From Natronobacterium gregoryi SP2 (GTDB lineage Archaea; Halobacteriota; Halobacteria; Halobacteriales; Natrialbaceae): a stretch of 64,000 nt of DNA. The stretch is taken from contig NC_019792.1 in assembly GCF_000230715.2 (NCBI RefSeq), positions 3,596,001 through 3,660,000 of the forward strand, read 5' to 3'. Positions 4,893-12,593 of the stretch are shown here, in pieces. The notes under the pieces were generated by a model. The model was not told the origin of the DNA, made no database searches, and saw only the letters and a list, made by a program, of their open reading frames with translations. Made by a program: the position numbers and the translations under genes. Positions within the stretch are counted from its first letter, which is position 1. Each line of letters opens with the position of its first letter.

Positions 4893-4999
4893 GCGTGGTG
4901 GTCGTCACATTCGGGGAAAACGATGACGGACCGCATCGGACCGATCCGTCGCCGTACCTTTAAGTAGTAACTCGCTCCTACACGGGGACGTATCCATCG

Positions 5000-7222
5000 A
5001 TGTCGACGACGTTCTCCCTCGAGGGGGTCTGTAAACTCCGAGACTGTCCCGCGTCCGACGCCCTCGAGGACGCTGCCCGCGAGTACGCCGCTCTCGCGGA
5101 CGAGTATGGCCCCCGGAACGTACTGGTCCTGAAGCGCCACCCCGCCGGCCTCGAGGCAGTCCGCGAACGGCTGGCCGCCGTCGACTCGACGAACGGTTCG
5201 CCGCGCTCTCCCCGGGTCGAGTCGGTCCCCGAACACGCCTCGAAGGTCATCGAAGAGCACGATCCGACGCTGGATCGACTCGAGTACGAGGAACGTATCG
5301 AACTCATCTCGCTCGTGATCGACGGTGCGAGCCGTGACGTTCCCGACTACCTCGAGCGGGCCGCCCGTCACGAGAGTTTCGCCCGGGACGTGGGGCAACT
5401 GCTGCTCGAGGCGACCCGCCAGCAGCGCCGACTCGAGGACGGGGCGGACGTCCACGACTGCCTGGAGTTTCTCTACGCGATGAACGACCGATTCCACGAG
5501 GCGATCGCATCCCGCGGCTACGTCGAGCGGGCGGACGTGATCCCGCGGGCCGTCGACCTGCTCGAGGACGACGCCGACGGCCTCCGGACGCGGATGACGG
5601 AGTCGTTCGACGCCGTCCTCGCTCTCGAGTTCGAGGAGTTCCGCCGACTCGACCGACGCTATCTCGGAGCACTCTCGGCCGATGCGCGACTGGTCTGTCT
5701 GGGCGAACGCCACGCCAGCGTCGAGCGAACCCGTGTCGAGCCCGGTCGGATCGGGGACGTCGTCGGCGACGGCCTCGCGATGGAACGGCTCGAGCGAGTG
5801 GACGCGTCCGGGTCCCCTCACCGCGATATCGTCCGATTTCTCGCGACCGGCGACGCGCCGGAGTCGAAAGAGAGCACTGACGCGCAGGCGTCGGAGGGCG
5901 ACTCGAGTGTTGACGCGGCGGAACCGACTGGACGCGCTCACCGCATTCGAACCGGAACCGCACGCGAGCAGGTTCGTGCGGTCGCCACGGAGATCCAGTC
6001 GCTGTCCGGGCGTCGCGAGTGGGGCTACGACGAGTTCGTCGTCGCCGTTCCCTCGATCGAACGGGTTCCAGACACCAGACGGCGGCTCCGGGAAGCGGGC
6101 GTTCCGACGGCGACGATCGGCACTCCCTCGCTCGCCGAAGACCCCGCGGTCAACGAACTCTACGCGTTCGTGGCGCTGCAGTGTGAGCGAAGCGAGACGC
6201 GGGCTGCAGACGGCGACCGGGACGGCGACTTCGCTCGCGAGGACGGCCTCGAGCGACTCCGCGCTCGCGTCGACGACTTTTCACCGTCCCTGCTCGAGGC
6301 CTGTGACGACTCGAGTGTCGTCCGCGCGCTCCGGCAGTGGCTCCGGCAGACGAACCTGAAAGGACGTATCGCTGCCGAGGAGGACTGGGTCGATGCCCGC
6401 GAGCAGTACGCAGGCGTGCGTCGCGTCCTCGAGATCGCCGACTTCGTCGAGGAGACGGATCTCGTCGGGCCGGACTGGCACGGATTCCGCCGAATGCTCG
6501 AGCGGACGATCCGGTACGACGCGCCGTACGTCCACGCGGTCGAGACCCAGCCGCCGACCGGCGGCGTCACGGTCTGTGCTGTCGGCGATCTCAAGTACGA
6601 CGCATACGAGGTCGTGTTCCTGCTGGATCTTATCGACGACGCGTACCCGGGCGAACAGTTCCTCACGCAGCTGTTTCCCGACGCGTGGCTCGAGGAGATG
6701 TCGGGGTATCCGGCGGTCACCGACCCCTCGCCCGAGACGGTCGCGGAGACGTTTGCGACGGTCGACGGATCGGACGACGTGGGCGACCCCTTCGAAACAT
6801 ACCACGCCCAGCGATCGCGACGCCGGCTCGCGATCGGTGCCCGTGCCGCACGGAGCCGTCTCTACTGCTGTTCGTACGAACGGGGCTCCGGCGGGCTGCG
6901 ACGCACCTACGACGAGTCGCGCTACCTCCAGCTACTCGCGTCGACGTCCGGACCCACACTCGAGGACGTCGACACCCACGACGAGGCGGCGATCAACGGC
7001 GAGACGAACGCCCTCGAGGCCGTCCTCGACCAGCCCCACGGCGAACTCGAGCGTGTCCTCCGGGAGGCGAGTACGGGCGGCGAGGCCGACCTCGCGGACA
7101 CCGAGGAACTGTTCGAGGAGCTCGCCGTCGTCCTCTCGGCGGATGATGTCGACGACGAACTTGCCGAGGCGGTGCGGTCGCAGTTCGAGTTCGCGGCGGG
7201 AGAGGTGGTCCGGAATGACTGA
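5000..7222 (+). CDS. AddB/RecC-like inactivated helicase subunit
   Basis: 740 residues, acidic, first of three overlapping genes. The N-terminus (about 35-55, VLVLKRHPAG) is where a UvrD-type Walker A loop would sit but has no GxGKT. Near residue 525 it has VTVCAVGDLKYDAYEVVFLLDL, matching the motif-V region of RecC/AddB proteins (KG-F--VFLLGL--G-FP), followed by DDAYPGEQFL. This points to a catalytically dead SF1 scaffold of the RecC/AddB kind that helps recognise and split DNA ends. The protein stops before any nuclease domain; that domain is the next gene. The end overlaps the next start by 8 bp. Function is inferred from motifs and context. Confidence 0.7.
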   Translation: MSTTFSLEGVCKLRDCPASDALEDAAREYAALADEYGPRNVLVLKRHPAGLEAVRERLAAVDSTNGSPRSPRVESVPEHASKVIEEHDPTLDRLEYEERIELISLVIDGASRDVPDYLERAARHESFARDVGQLLLEATRQQRRLEDGADVHDCLEFLYAMNDRFHEAIASRGYVERADVIPRAVDLLEDDADGLRTRMTESFDAVLALEFEEFRRLDRRYLGALSADARLVCLGERHASVERTRVEPGRIGDVVGDGLAMERLERVDASGSPHRDIVRFLATGDAPESKESTDAQASEGDSSVDAAEPTGRAHRIRTGTAREQVRAVATEIQSLSGRREWGYDEFVVAVPSIERVPDTRRRLREAGVPTATIGTPSLAEDPAVNELYAFVALQCERSETRAADGDRDGDFAREDGLERLRARVDDFSPSLLEACDDSSVVRALRQWLRQTNLKGRIAAEEDWVDAREQYAGVRRVLEIADFVEETDLVGPDWHGFRRMLERTIRYDAPYVHAVETQPPTGGVTVCAVGDLKYDAYEVVFLLDLIDDAYPGEQFLTQLFPDAWLEEMSGYPAVTDPSPETVAETFATVDGSDDVGDPFETYHAQRSRRRLAIGARAARSRLYCCSYERGSGGLRRTYDESRYLQLLASTSGPTLEDVDTHDEAAINGETNALEAVLDQPHGELERVLREASTGGEADLADTEELFEELAVVLSADDVDDELAEAVRSQFEFAAGEVVRND

Positions 7223-8231
7223 GACGCTCTCGGTCGACGCGCTTCGGGCCTACCTCCGCTGTCCCCGCCAGTACGAACTGGGCTACGTCTACGACCTCGA
7301 GGGGACCGACGAGGACGATGCGACGGCCGACCGCGTCTCACTGCTTCGAACGGCGATCTGTGCGGCCCTCGAAAGCGACGAGAGCGACCCGGAGGCGCTC
7401 GAAGCGGTGGCGAAACGACGACTGTCGACGCTCTGGGACGACCACGACGAACCGTTCCACTCACAGGCACAGCGACGCCACGAACGCCGCGTCCTCGAGG
7501 CGACGCTGCGGGCGTACCTCGAGCTGGCGGGCGTCGAACACGCGATGGGGGTTCGAGAGTTGCGCCAGGAGGTGGCGGACGGCGACGCCACGCTCGCCGG
7601 CCCGGAGATCGACCTCGAGAGTTCGATTTCGGTCCCCGATTCGGACGCCGAACCCGTCACTCTCGAGGCGACCGTCGACTACGTCTACGGCGACGGCTCG
7701 TCGCTGGTCGGGGTGCGGTTCGTCCCGACGCTCTGGCCGATGGGGTATCTCCGGTATCGCTCCGAGTGGGAGGACGTCGAGGACCGGTTCGTCGACCACT
7801 TCGATCCCGAAGCCGACGAGTTCGATCCCGGCTCCGTTGGGACCTTGCTCGAGACCGCCGTCGTCCTTGATGGGCTCCGGAGCTACGCCGACCGGCTCGG
7901 GCTGTCCGATCGAACCTGCCGGTACGTCTGGGTGCCCCTCGCCGATCGCTCGGAGACGTCGATCAACTGGGTGCGTGAGACTGTCGAGACGAGTCTCGAG
8001 GTCGCAGACCTCACCGACGTTTACGTCGACCACCACACGTTCGGGATGACCCACGAACACCGCAATCGGACCGTCGACGGGCGACTCGAGTCGGTCGTCG
8101 ACCGTCTCCGATCCGACGGTTTCGACCCGAGTGAACGGTGGGACGACATCGTCGACGAGGTCTGTCCGGCGTGTGAGTATCGCGTCTGCTGTGGCGAGTA
8201 CGTCGGGACGGAGGTGGCGTTCGATGGGTGA
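7215..8231 (+). CDS. Fe-S nuclease-like protein (AddB C-terminal / Cas4-like fold), active site apparently lost
   Basis: 338 residues. One cysteine lies near the N-terminus (C16 in YLRCPRQYE) and a cluster near the C-terminus (C317, C320, C325/C326 in CPACEYRVCC), the spacing seen in iron-sulfur PD-(D/E)XK nucleases such as AddB and Cas4. Where DxxD...(D/E)xK would be expected there is ATVDYVYGDG followed by LVGVRF, so the catalytic lysine motif is not evident. It overlaps both neighbours by 8 bp, implying coupled translation into one complex. It could be a structural Fe-S domain that clamps DNA. The ATG at 7215 is chosen because the longer frame lies inside the upstream gene. Confidence 0.75.
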   Translation: MTETLSVDALRAYLRCPRQYELGYVYDLEGTDEDDATADRVSLLRTAICAALESDESDPEALEAVAKRRLSTLWDDHDEPFHSQAQRRHERRVLEATLRAYLELAGVEHAMGVRELRQEVADGDATLAGPEIDLESSISVPDSDAEPVTLEATVDYVYGDGSSLVGVRFVPTLWPMGYLRYRSEWEDVEDRFVDHFDPEADEFDPGSVGTLLETAVVLDGLRSYADRLGLSDRTCRYVWVPLADRSETSINWVRETVETSLEVADLTDVYVDHHTFGMTHEHRNRTVDGRLESVVDRLRSDGFDPSERWDDIVDEVCPACEYRVCCGEYVGTEVAFDG

Positions 8232-11200
8232 GCCAGAACGCGAACCGGGAGACGAGGAGCTCGAACCCCGCGGAAACCAGGATGCCGTTCTCGAGAGCAC
8301 GGCGGCCTGTACCTCCGTCGACGCGGGTGCAGGGACGGGCAAGACGACCACGATGCTCATGCGGATCGAACACGCCATCGAGACCGGCGCGGTCGACCCC
8401 GGCGACGTGCTGGTCTTGACGTTCGCAAACGAGGCCGCTGGCAGCATCCGCGACGCGGTCGCCGACCGACTCGATCCCGAAACGGCGGCGGCAATCGACG
8501 TCTACACCTACCACTCGTTCTGTCACCGGCTGGTCCGAGAGTACGCCTACTACCTCGGCTACTCGCCGGAGTTCGACGTCGTCACCGACCGAAAACGCCG
8601 CCGGCTGATCGGCCGACTGCTCGCGGAGAACGACTACGGTTTCGCCGCGGCGACCGGCGACGGCTCACCGGCCGAACTCACCGCCGACGTCGATGGCTTC
8701 ATCCAGGAGATGAGCCAGGAAGACGTCACTCCCGGCGAGCTACAGAAGGCGTTGCCGGACGTTCGCACCCTCGAGCTACTGACCGAGTTCGTCCTCTGGC
8801 TCGAGCGCCGCGCGAACGAGGAACTATCTTTCGACGCCGAGGCGCTCCGGTACTTCAACGCCGAGGACCACCTCGAAACGGCCTCAGAGTCGCTGGTCGA
8901 CTACGGCAAGCTGATTCAGTACTGTCGTGAGAAGATCGACGAGTCGCCCGCGTTTGGCGACAGCGAGGTCGTCCGCGACGTCGAGCGCTACCTCGAGATC
9001 CTCCAGGACTGCGTGACAGAGACGATCGAGACGCTCTCGCTCGAGGAGCGGGAGACAAAACAGTTGCCGCGGGCGCTGTTTTACAACCGGATTCGCCGGG
9101 ACGCGACGGACCGAATCGAGCAGAGCCCGTTCGGCCGACTGAAACACTACGTCGAGTTCCTCCGGCTCGCGCGCCACTACACCGACGTCTACGGGGACTA
9201 CCACGACGCCCTCGAGAACCGGGGTGCACTCGACTTCGACGAACTCGTACGGAAGGCGACCCAGTTGCTGAACGACGAGTCGATCGCCTCCGAGATCACC
9301 GACCGATGGGAGCAGGTCTACTGCGACGAGTTTCAGGACACCGACGAGACGCAGTTTTCCCTGCTCACGGGACTTACCGACGGCCACGACCGACCGTCGC
9401 TGTTCGCAATCGGCGACAAGGACCAGGCGATCTATGGCTGGCGCGGGACGGATCGCAGGGGACTGGACCGACTCGCGTCCGTCTACGACGACCACGACGC
9501 GGTCGAACTCGGGCTCAACTTCCGGTCGCGCCAGGAGATCCTCGACCTGACCAACTGCTGTGGGTACGGGCCACAGTCCTCGAAGACGCTCCGGGAGGCA
9601 GACCGGACGCCGGGCGAGTACGGCGACTACGACGATTACGAGCGTGCCGACGACGACACGGGGCTCGAGGAGCCGCCGGATCACGTCGTCACGATCGAGA
9701 GCGGCGAGATCGATCGGCCGATGGCCGAACAGGTCGGAACGACCGTCTCGAGGCTGCTCAACGGTGAAGCCGAGAACGTCCCACGACGGCGACTCGAGGA
9801 CGTCGCGGTCGTCGTCAGGACGAACCGCCACGCCCAGGCCGTCGCGGAGGCACTCGAGAGCCGTCGAATTCCCTACGAGGTATCGGGCTCGCCCGGCGGC
9901 GACGTCTCGCCCGGTATCCGGACGGTGCTGTCGTACCTCCGCGTGCTCGTCGACTCCGACGCGGACGCCCACCTCCGGCGAGTTCTGTTCTACCGGTATC
10001 GGCTTCCGGAGTCCGACCTTCGGACGCTACAGCAACAGGACGGTCCGCTCGTGGACGCCGTCTTCGAGGTCGACAGCGAGACACTCGAGCGTCCCGACAG
10101 GCTCGAGCGAGCACGCGACCACCTCGAGACGCTCGCAGAGTACCGGCGTCTGTACCCGCTGTCCGGCTTCCTCCGGCGGTTCCGCGAGGTGACGCGTCTC
10201 GAGTGGTTCCTCACGAGCGACGAGCGCGCCGAGTTCGACCGGATCGAGCGATTCGTCGACGCCTACGACGCCGACTCGATGTTGCGAATGCTCTCTGCGG
10301 AGTTTCTCGAGGCGCTGGAGAACACGCTCGAGGGAAGCGAGAGCGAGCGAACGCGTGGAACACACTCGAGCGACTATGTCGACGTGATGACGGTCCACCA
10401 GGCGAAGGGACTGGAGTTCGACACCGTCCTCGTTCCCTTCCTCTCGGACGAGGAGTGGTGCGTCGAGGCGGACTACGCCCGGCGAAGCCGCGAGCGGTTG
10501 CTTGCAGCGTTGCTCTCCGACGACCTCGAGTCGCCGTTACGGTCGGATCTGGCGGCCGAGACCGTCGGCGAGGAGTGGCGCGTGCTCCACGTCGCGCTCA
10601 CCCGTGCGGAGAACCACCTCTTTCTGTTCGGTGCCGAGTACGACTACGAGGGTGAGGACGCCCAGCTGGGCGTCGAGACCGCGGACGCCTGCCTTCCCGA
10701 CGCGATCGAGTGGTCGACTGCCGGCCAGCGGATGGACCTCTGGGAGTCACTGACCGAGAGCTTCGAGGACGTTCGAGAGATCTATCCAGAGACAGTCGCC
10801 GACCGGACGACGGAACTCGCTCGCTCGAGCGGCGTGACCCCCGGTTCGATCACCTACTACGCCGACTACGAGGACCGACAGGTCGAGCCGCTGCGAACGC
10901 GGGAGGCGATCGAGACGGTCCACCAGCTGGGGCGATTACTGCGCGACGACGCGCTGTTGCCCGCGGCCGACGCCGCGAGCTACGCCGACGGTCGCGACGA
11001 CGGCGTTCGAGTGCCGGGCGCGCGGCGGCTGTCGACGCTGACCGAAGAGACCGTCCGGTTCCCGGTCGAGACGCTGTCCGAGGCGACCGAACTCCCGGTC
11101 GCAATCTCGCACAGCTACACCGCGATGGAGACTCACGACACGTGTCCGCGAAAGCACTACCTCGATCACGTCGTCCGGGCGATCGACGATCCGGGGGCTC

Positions 11201-11895
11201 GAGGCGAGACATCTTCCGGCGACGGCGGCTCGCGAGTCGTCGGCACCGTCTTCCACGACGTTGCCGAAGAGGCGTTCTACCGCGAGTACGAGAGCCGTGA
11301 GGAGTGGCACGAGGCAGCGACCCGACAGCTGACCGCTCGAGGACTGACCGACCACCGCGAGGACGTACTGGCCTGCGTCGATCGATACTTCGGGGCGACG
11401 GCGGACGGTTTCGACCGTCCAGTCGCCGACTGGGACCAACTCGCGGCCGAACTGCCGTTCTCGCTTGCAGACGTCGCCGGCGTGACGGGCAACGTCGTCG
11501 GCTACGTCGACTCGGTTCGCCGGACGCCCGACGGGGAACTCGTCGTCCTCGACTACAAGGCGACCGCCGAGCGGGCCGATCCGACCGAGGCCGTCCAACT
11601 CGTGCTGTACGCTCGTGCCTGCGAGCAGCGATTCGACGAACCAGTCTCGGCCGTCGGCTACGTCTACGTGGGAGACGTCGATTCGGGTCCGCGGGCCGAA
11701 CTCGTCGATCCCGAATCCGACGAACTGCCGGAGTGGGAGTCGGTACTCGAGACATTCGTGGCCGCCGACGATCCCGACTATTTCGAGACGACGCCGGGCA
11801 ATCACTGTCGGTACTGCCCGCATCGGTCACTGGGCTGTGGGCCCGACGGGCTCGAGGACCGCAGAGAGACGCGAGGACGTCCGCAAGCACGGTAA
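8224..11895 (+). CDS. UvrD/AddA-like SF1 helicase fused to a Fe-S PD-(D/E)XK nuclease
   Basis: 1223 residues. Helicase motifs in order: Walker A GAGTGKT (35-41), TFANEAA (Ia), DEFQDTDETQF (motif II, about 369), GDKDQAIYGWRG (motif III, about 396), MTVHQAKGLEFD (motif V, about 721) and LHVALTRAE (motif VI, about 790). The C-terminal nuclease has TCPRKHYL (about 972), GTVFHDVAEE, GYVDSV, then LDYKAT (catalytic D-x-K, about 1108), and ends with CRYCPHRSLGC (about 1194), completing a four-cysteine Fe-S site. It probably unwinds and degrades double-strand break ends. The start at 8224 overlaps the previous gene by 8 bp and avoids a spurious upstream extension. Confidence 0.9.
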   Translation: MGEPEREPGDEELEPRGNQDAVLESTAACTSVDAGAGTGKTTTMLMRIEHAIETGAVDPGDVLVLTFANEAAGSIRDAVADRLDPETAAAIDVYTYHSFCHRLVREYAYYLGYSPEFDVVTDRKRRRLIGRLLAENDYGFAAATGDGSPAELTADVDGFIQEMSQEDVTPGELQKALPDVRTLELLTEFVLWLERRANEELSFDAEALRYFNAEDHLETASESLVDYGKLIQYCREKIDESPAFGDSEVVRDVERYLEILQDCVTETIETLSLEERETKQLPRALFYNRIRRDATDRIEQSPFGRLKHYVEFLRLARHYTDVYGDYHDALENRGALDFDELVRKATQLLNDESIASEITDRWEQVYCDEFQDTDETQFSLLTGLTDGHDRPSLFAIGDKDQAIYGWRGTDRRGLDRLASVYDDHDAVELGLNFRSRQEILDLTNCCGYGPQSSKTLREADRTPGEYGDYDDYERADDDTGLEEPPDHVVTIESGEIDRPMAEQVGTTVSRLLNGEAENVPRRRLEDVAVVVRTNRHAQAVAEALESRRIPYEVSGSPGGDVSPGIRTVLSYLRVLVDSDADAHLRRVLFYRYRLPESDLRTLQQQDGPLVDAVFEVDSETLERPDRLERARDHLETLAEYRRLYPLSGFLRRFREVTRLEWFLTSDERAEFDRIERFVDAYDADSMLRMLSAEFLEALENTLEGSESERTRGTHSSDYVDVMTVHQAKGLEFDTVLVPFLSDEEWCVEADYARRSRERLLAALLSDDLESPLRSDLAAETVGEEWRVLHVALTRAENHLFLFGAEYDYEGEDAQLGVETADACLPDAIEWSTAGQRMDLWESLTESFEDVREIYPETVADRTTELARSSGVTPGSITYYADYEDRQVEPLRTREAIETVHQLGRLLRDDALLPAADAASYADGRDDGVRVPGARRLSTLTEETVRFPVETLSEATELPVAISHSYTAMETHDTCPRKHYLDHVVRAIDDPGARGETSSGDGGSRVVGTVFHDVAEEAFYREYESREEWHEAATRQLTARGLTDHREDVLACVDRYFGATADGFDRPVADWDQLAAELPFSLADVAGVTGNVVGYVDSVRRTPDGELVVLDYKATAERADPTEAVQLVLYARACEQRFDEPVSAVGYVYVGDVDSGPRAELVDPESDELPEWESVLETFVAADDPDYFETTPGNHCRYCPHRSLGCGPDGLEDRRETRGRPQAR

Positions 11896-12098: not shown

Positions 12099-12593
12099 AT
12101 GATCGAGGCGACGCTGTGTTTTCCGCTGCGGGACGGCGACGTCCTCCTGATCGAGAAACGCCGCGGACTCGGCGAGGGCTGGTACAACGGTCCGGGCGGC
12201 AAACTCGAGGACGGCGAGACACCCCGGGAGTGTGCGGTCCGCGAGACCCGCGAGGAGGTCGGACTCGAGGTCGATCCGGCGGCGCTCGAGAAGGCCGGGG
12301 AACTCACGTTCCTGCTGGACGGCGAGGTCCACACGGTCTGTCACGTCTACCGGACCGACGAGTTCTCGGGGGAGCCGACCGCATCGGAGGAGGCCCGGCC
12401 GGAGTGGTTCGCTGTCGAGGACGTTCCCTACGACCAGATGTGGGAGGACGACCGGCTGTGGCTGCCGGGAGTGCTGGACGGAAAGACTGTCGCGGGCGAG
12501 TTCGCGTTCGCGGGTGGAAAACCCCTGGACGAGGCCGAGTTCGTCGATTACGACCTCGAGTGGGACGTTGCGTTCGACGCCGCGGCGGAGTAA
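12099..12593 (+). CDS. MTH1-like Nudix hydrolase (8-oxo-dGTP diphosphatase type)
   Basis: 164 residues with a complete Nudix box (GX5EX7REUXEEXGU) starting at GGKLEDGE. Features shared with MTH1 rather than generic MutT are GWYNGPGGK before the box and the C-terminal WEDDRLWLPGVLDGK stretch followed by GEFAF. The likely role is removal of oxidised purine nucleotides from the pool. It is transcribed alone after the helicase operon; TTTATG at 12069-12074 lies 25 nt before the ATG and could be the TATA box of a leaderless transcript. It ends 3 bp from the convergent oxidoreductase. Confidence 0.88.
   Translation: MIEATLCFPLRDGDVLLIEKRRGLGEGWYNGPGGKLEDGETPRECAVRETREEVGLEVDPAALEKAGELTFLLDGEVHTVCHVYRTDEFSGEPTASEEARPEWFAVEDVPYDQMWEDDRLWLPGVLDGKTVAGEFAFAGGKPLDEAEFVDYDLEWDVAFDAAAE

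Follow-up and report, generated by a model that had tools for sequence, protein, structure and literature searches.

Helicase-nuclease systems and the A-B-C operon

AddAB, known from Bacillus subtilis (PDB 3u4q and 4cej) and as a two-gene system from archaea, pairs one UvrD-type motor bearing a C-terminal nuclease with a partner that combines a helicase fold and an iron-sulphur (Fe-S) nuclease end, and the scaffold gene precedes the motor gene. RecBCD likewise has one RecB-like active subunit, accompanied by a RecC-like partner in which both the helicase and the nuclease folds are dead. AdnAB of mycobacteria (PDB 6ppu) contains two UvrD-related subunits, both with intact motor motifs, whereas UvrD-Cas4 fusions, described also in defence contexts (PMC5704561), join a UvrD helicase to a pfam12705 nuclease in a single protein. 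Here, we analyzed a 64,000-nucleotide stretch of Natronobacterium gregoryi SP2 (NC_019792.1, positions 3,596,001 to 3,660,000; hereafter the window, to which coordinates refer unless another locus is named) and focused on an operon of three genes, A, B, and C. We consider it, with a probability of roughly 0.7, to encode an AddAB/RecBC-type helicase-nuclease whose addB is split in two. This reading rests on the resemblance of A to the N-terminal part of AddB, of B to the AddB nuclease, and of C to AddA, together with the gene order, which is that of addB-addA.

The three open reading frames lie on the + strand at 5000-7222 (A, 740 amino acids), 7215-8231 (B, 338 amino acids), and 8224-11895 (C, 1,223 amino acids). 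The start of C is the ATG at 8224, which is conserved among homologues; the longer frame in the list of open reading frames began at 8131. Consecutive genes overlap by 8 base pairs (bp) at both junctions (7215-7222 and 8224-8231, + strand), as the initial annotation had stated, and the haloarchaeal addB-addA pairs of two genes share both the gene order and the 8 bp overlap. The A-B-C order was found in all 27 loci first fetched. A further 73 loci, all haloarchaeal, contain A and B without exception and C in 71, the two others being truncated by contig ends. The arrangement is thus not due to chance. These homologue searches were seeded with A, and lone C genes would escape them. The operon contains no RecD-like gene, the next genes being those for a NUDIX protein and an epimerase. 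A TATA-like element (cctttaagtag, 4957-4967) was seen by eye about 40 bp upstream of the A start codon, where it would fit a near-leaderless operon transcript.

Relationship of A, B, and C to AddAB

Protein A (5000-7222, +) is, as judged from its sequence and predicted structure, a motor-dead AddB-like helicase of superfamily 1. It matched nothing in Pfam, NCBIfam, or PADLOC. When its profile was compared with the PDB, the best match was AddB (3u44_B, E = 2.4e-8), ahead of UvrD1; a profile built from A2 gave no useful match there. The AlphaFold model of A is confident, with a predicted local distance difference test score (pLDDT) of 82.5 and a predicted template modelling score (pTM) of 0.82, and a fold search with it returned AddB at ranks 1 to 4 in the PDB. 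A RecC/AddB fold, which had been set beforehand as the check on the first protein, is therefore what this model's closest matches display. The motor motifs are missing: by motif scan Walker A is present in none of 74 A homologues, and a DExQD motif was not found in A. The expected place of the Walker A loop, between the first strand (residues 9-14) and the first helix (residues 21-36), was located by alignment and secondary structure at 5024-5059 (+). The archaeal AddB proteins checked also lack Walker A. Together, the profile and fold searches and the motif scan bear out the initial description of A as an inactivated RecC/AddB-like helicase. In AdnAB, by comparison, both motors are intact; in A-B-C the second one, A, is dead, and the accompanying nuclease domain forms a protein by itself.

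That separate protein, B (7215-8231, +), is predicted from its sequence and model to have an Fe-S PD-(D/E)XK fold. It matched Pfam PDDEXK_1 (1.3e-10) and no NCBIfam model. Four cysteines are invariant in 41 sequences and are candidate Fe-S ligands: Cys16 (7260-7262, +) and Cys317, Cys320, and Cys326, which form a CxxCx5C motif (8163-8192, +). They match the four Fe-S cysteines around the AddB nuclease and would hold a putative cluster in B. The alignment by hhalign places B on the nuclease end of AddB, and its profile-profile score against the C-terminal part of AddB is 79.7, versus 57.2 and 56.0 for the others; the yardstick for these profiles was two-gene AddAB, comprising archaeal pairs and one cyanobacterial pair. 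The model of B (pLDDT 90.5) resembles first the Argonaute-associated Cas4-family protein ACE1 and then the nuclease end of AddB, both with modest E-values. These results agree with the earlier proposal of a free-standing Fe-S nuclease-fold protein and, as A and B match the two ends of AddB, with the proposal that this domain was split off from an AddB scaffold. AddB is one polypeptide, whereas its two folds are carried by two genes in every A-B-C locus; RecC, too, is a single scaffold and, unlike B, has not kept the Fe-S cysteines. In the active-site stretch of the window copy (7677-7721, +), alignments and the motif scan showed that D155 is retained and that the D/E-x-K motif is replaced (...VGVRF). 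With B thus predicted to be nuclease-dead, the A+B pair of the window would be RecC-like in function.

Protein C (8224-11895, +) is predicted from its motifs to be an active UvrD-type helicase and nuclease. Pfam identified UvrD-helicase (7.8e-53), UvrD_C (7.1e-26), and PDDEXK_1 (1.4e-25). Walker A (AGAGTGKT, 8323-8346, +) and the Walker B/motif II sequence DEFQDT (9325-9342, +) are invariant in the alignment and were found by motif scan in 68/68 and 66/68 homologues, respectively. The nuclease residues H1011, D1096, D1110-Y-K1112 (the catalytic DYK, 11551-11559, +), and Q1125 are invariant in 23 sequences, and so are the candidate Fe-S ligands Cys974 (11143-11145, +) and Cys1195, Cys1198, and Cys1205 (11806-11838, +); the CxxCx6C signature occurs in 68/68 homologues. 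C thus has the motifs expected of the helicase and nuclease of AddA, and an AddA-like subunit with its own four-cysteine nuclease, as initially annotated, is well supported. In contrast, the cysteines are missing in 5 of the 6 AddA proteins compared. By hhalign, C scored 701.6 against AddA versus 590.8 against UvrD-Cas4. Against the PDB, C also matched AdnB well (1.8e-28), and phmmer with its nuclease part gave no useful match.

Several observations weigh against equating the operon with AddAB. No curated AddA, AddB, or RecC model was passed by A, B, or C; C reached 127.6 bits against addA_Gpos, for which the cut-off is 707.65. E. coli RecC, used as a single sequence, gave no significant profile match. 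A quick tree, which had some long branches and only two UvrD-Cas4 rows, placed C in a clade of its own (support 100), separate from those of AddA (95) and archaeal UvrD-Cas4 (97). Filing C simply as an AddA was rejected on the basis of this tree and the curated cut-offs, and it should best be named AddA-like in architecture, not an AddA. Unlike the single-protein UvrD-Cas4 fusions, it is accompanied by A and B. Correlations of 0.94-0.99 were obtained between the pairwise distance matrices of A, B, and C, consistent with the three genes travelling together; shared descent gives the same result. The origin of A could also differ. Its profile-profile scores were 148.6 for AddB, 135.7 for archaeal UvrD-Cas4, and 111.4 for AddA, and the profile depths are unequal, which makes small score gaps weak. 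UvrD/PcrA structures came very near AddB by E-value in the fold search. Given these nearly equal scores and close fold matches, A could be a UvrD paralogue that decayed independently beside C, with an AdnAB-like origin and a convergent likeness to AddAB, and the best NCBIfam matches of C, PcrA and Rep, would agree with this. We regard such an origin as the less likely one. Only the AddB alignment, which starts at residue 24-27, takes in the N-terminal part of A; the alignments to UvrD-Cas4 and AddA start at about residue 154-158. Moreover, A and B are, in this order, collinear with AddB, and the best match of B is the AddB nuclease.

If the operon is a split AddAB, AddAB and RecBCD provide a model for its action. 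Only C would act as a motor and, in the window copy, as a nuclease. From the DNA end on which it has loaded, it would translocate in the 3'-5' direction typical of UvrD-family motors and cleave the strands as it separates them. A, a dead helicase fold, and B, a dead nuclease fold with intact Fe-S cysteines, would form a RecC/AddB-like scaffold that grips the end and, serving as a pin, splits or guides the strands; its Fe-S cluster would be structural. In the mobile copies described below, B and C could each cut one strand. From the family one would also expect assembly into a complex, this strand polarity, a Chi-like control, DNA-end resection or degradation, and a role in RadA-dependent recombinational repair, and for the window copy DNA-end resection or degradation is the most likely function. 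The same genome contains two NurA genes above the cut-off and a sub-threshold Rad50-hook match, so the operon appears to be an addition to the standard archaeal end-processing set, as had been supposed at the outset. An AddAB-like machine, if real, would provide a further candidate for break resection in most of the sampled Natrialbaceae: by count of the listed matches, A occurs in 64 of the 74.

Chromosomal and mobile branches

In total, A was found in 106 of 292 Halobacteria genomes. In a 295-genome sample of the phylum, the matches to A outside Halobacteria were partial and weak and lay in frames of about 920-1,100 amino acids; those inspected were AddB-like or UvrD-nuclease proteins. A viral origin of A was considered and is unsupported, as two scans of viral contigs with A gave no relatives.

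On the unrooted tree of A, the state of the B active site requires one change, with 27 intact copies on one side and 22 that have lost the motif on the other (support for the split, 99). Since the motif is found in AddB as well as in the mobile copies, loss would be the natural direction. The lost branch comprises the chromosomal Natrialbaceae copies, including that of the window, and a few divergent ones (L042, L098, and L110). The intact branch, in which B keeps the motif (DYK) as expected of an AddB nuclease, is found on plasmids and varied chromosomes and mixes host families at short distances, for example Halosimplex with Natronomonas. Most gene overlaps measure 8 bp in chromosomal copies, and 8 or 4 bp in mobile ones.

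The neighbourhoods of the two branches differ as well. The window operon is surrounded by genes for an epimerase, a NUDIX protein, a dehydrogenase, ProRS, and glutamate synthase, with no defence genes among them. The mobile copies are flanked by BREX-5, type I and type III restriction, Sir2, McrBC-like, and conjugation-like genes. At E ≤ 1e-10, neighbours at ten mobile loci matched 90 PADLOC families versus 7 at ten chromosomal loci other than the window operon, counts that are not independent, as the PADLOC models overlap one another. Genes upstream of the operon in two loci (L106 and L115) had been taken for Argonaute by size; Pfam showed them to encode McrB-like AAA_5 proteins.

A subset of the mobile copies is directly linked to Argonaute. 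The order Argonaute (Piwi, about 890 amino acids)-PLD-A-B-C was found in L108, L114, L117, L118, L119, and the plasmid L157, and the distance from the PLD stop to the A start is 5 bp in the five loci measured and, by annotation, in L157. Ten of the 292 Halobacteria genomes have an Argonaute of the cassette-linked clade (at least 85% identity); A lies about 2.2 kb downstream of it in 9 of them, and the remaining genome has A on a neighbouring contig piece. Argonaute-PLD pairs constitute the APAP system, which was shown to restrict plasmids and a virus (PMC11442185). The main text of that paper refers to no more than "a helicase-encoding gene" in the vicinity of some operons and names no helicase-nuclease complex (PMC11442185), and UvrD-type proteins with PD-(D/E)XK motifs near Argonautes have been listed (PMC6299218). 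The association is therefore partly noticed already; in the literature searched, we did not find the Argonaute-linked cassette read as a complete three-subunit AddAB-like machine. According to work cited in the APAP paper (PMC11442185), cleavage of duplex DNA by Argonaute is limited by its lack of helicase activity, and in vitro it is helped by helicases, including a nuclease-deficient RecBC. An operon supplying Argonaute together with a helicase machine would be a natural version of this pairing.

Defence is the probable function of the mobile cassette, which in one clade would feed or follow an Argonaute-PLD system. A broader interpretation holds that A-B-C as a whole is a dedicated anti-invader machine degrading foreign linear or replicating DNA, and that the chromosomal Natrialbaceae copy is a domesticated defence system. 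The plasmid location of mobile copies beside defence genes, the excess of PADLOC families, and the recurrent position of A behind one Argonaute clade all favour it. We nevertheless consider it a minority possibility: the window copy sits among housekeeping genes, A is present in most Natrialbaceae, and, in the short flanks covered, 23 of 46 chromosomal relatives share a NUDIX neighbour. The initial suggestion of a role in recombination or defence accordingly divides, with context supporting defence in the mobile branch and giving no such support for the chromosomal copy of the window. Building on the split-addB reading, we tentatively propose, at somewhat short of even odds, that the operon exists in two states. 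One state is mobile and has an intact nuclease motif in B; in one Argonaute clade the genes join those of Argonaute and PLD in a five-gene unit, so that Argonaute would have its own unwinding and end-chewing engine. The other state is chromosomal: after a single loss of the scaffold nuclease, the machine would have become a resident repair enzyme, repeating the bacterial change from AddB to RecC. How a RecC-like subunit arises could then be studied in a second case, the branch that lost its scaffold nuclease. That no single complex exists, with C acting alone as lone archaeal UvrD-Cas4 enzymes do (PMC5704561) and A and B serving other roles, is improbable given that the translational overlaps are kept and the gene order is unbroken in both branches in the A-seeded searches.

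Neighbouring genes and related loci

The NUDIX hydrolase gene of the window (12099-12593) lies about 200 bp downstream of the operon on the same strand and may be functionally linked to it. Argonaute-PLD-A-B-C arrays occur on both plasmids and chromosomes of haloarchaea, for example at L108:2079-6947 and L157:9082-13926. In an eleventh genome (G301, contig C1, 2389715-2390411), a broken Argonaute stands beside A, in pieces 86-95% identical and with a stop, which indicates decay of the Argonaute part while A remains at the locus.

The window genome has an Argonaute of its own (887 amino acids; L180:7064-9724, corresponding to about 2525063-2527723 of contig C1 in G000), which is probably NgAgo. 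It lies about 1.07 Mb from the operon and shares only 27-29% identity with the cassette-linked Argonautes, and the cassette PLD protein had no match in the 19 kb stretch around it. On these grounds, a link between the operon and this Argonaute was rejected. Unlike the mobile cassettes that directly follow ago-PLD, the window copy has no Argonaute link.

On plasmids, A-B-C often lies between a divergent AAA/DUF4143 ATPase (568 amino acids; L160:11974-13677) and a 375-amino-acid antisense protein (L160:20315-21439), the latter with a weak match to a DNA polymerase B exonuclease.

The A-B-C operon is not the only source of AddAB-type enzymes in archaea, as ordinary two-gene AddAB is also present in haloarchaea and methanogens. 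Haloarchaeal plasmids carry such pairs at L168:4766-11615, L169:4922-11606 (H. salinarum plasmid PHS3), and L171:4790-11609. Their AddB proteins are about 1,020-1,060 amino acids long with the nuclease motif and Fe-S cysteines intact, and their genes overlap addA by 8 bp. The methanogen pairs are at L146 and L149.

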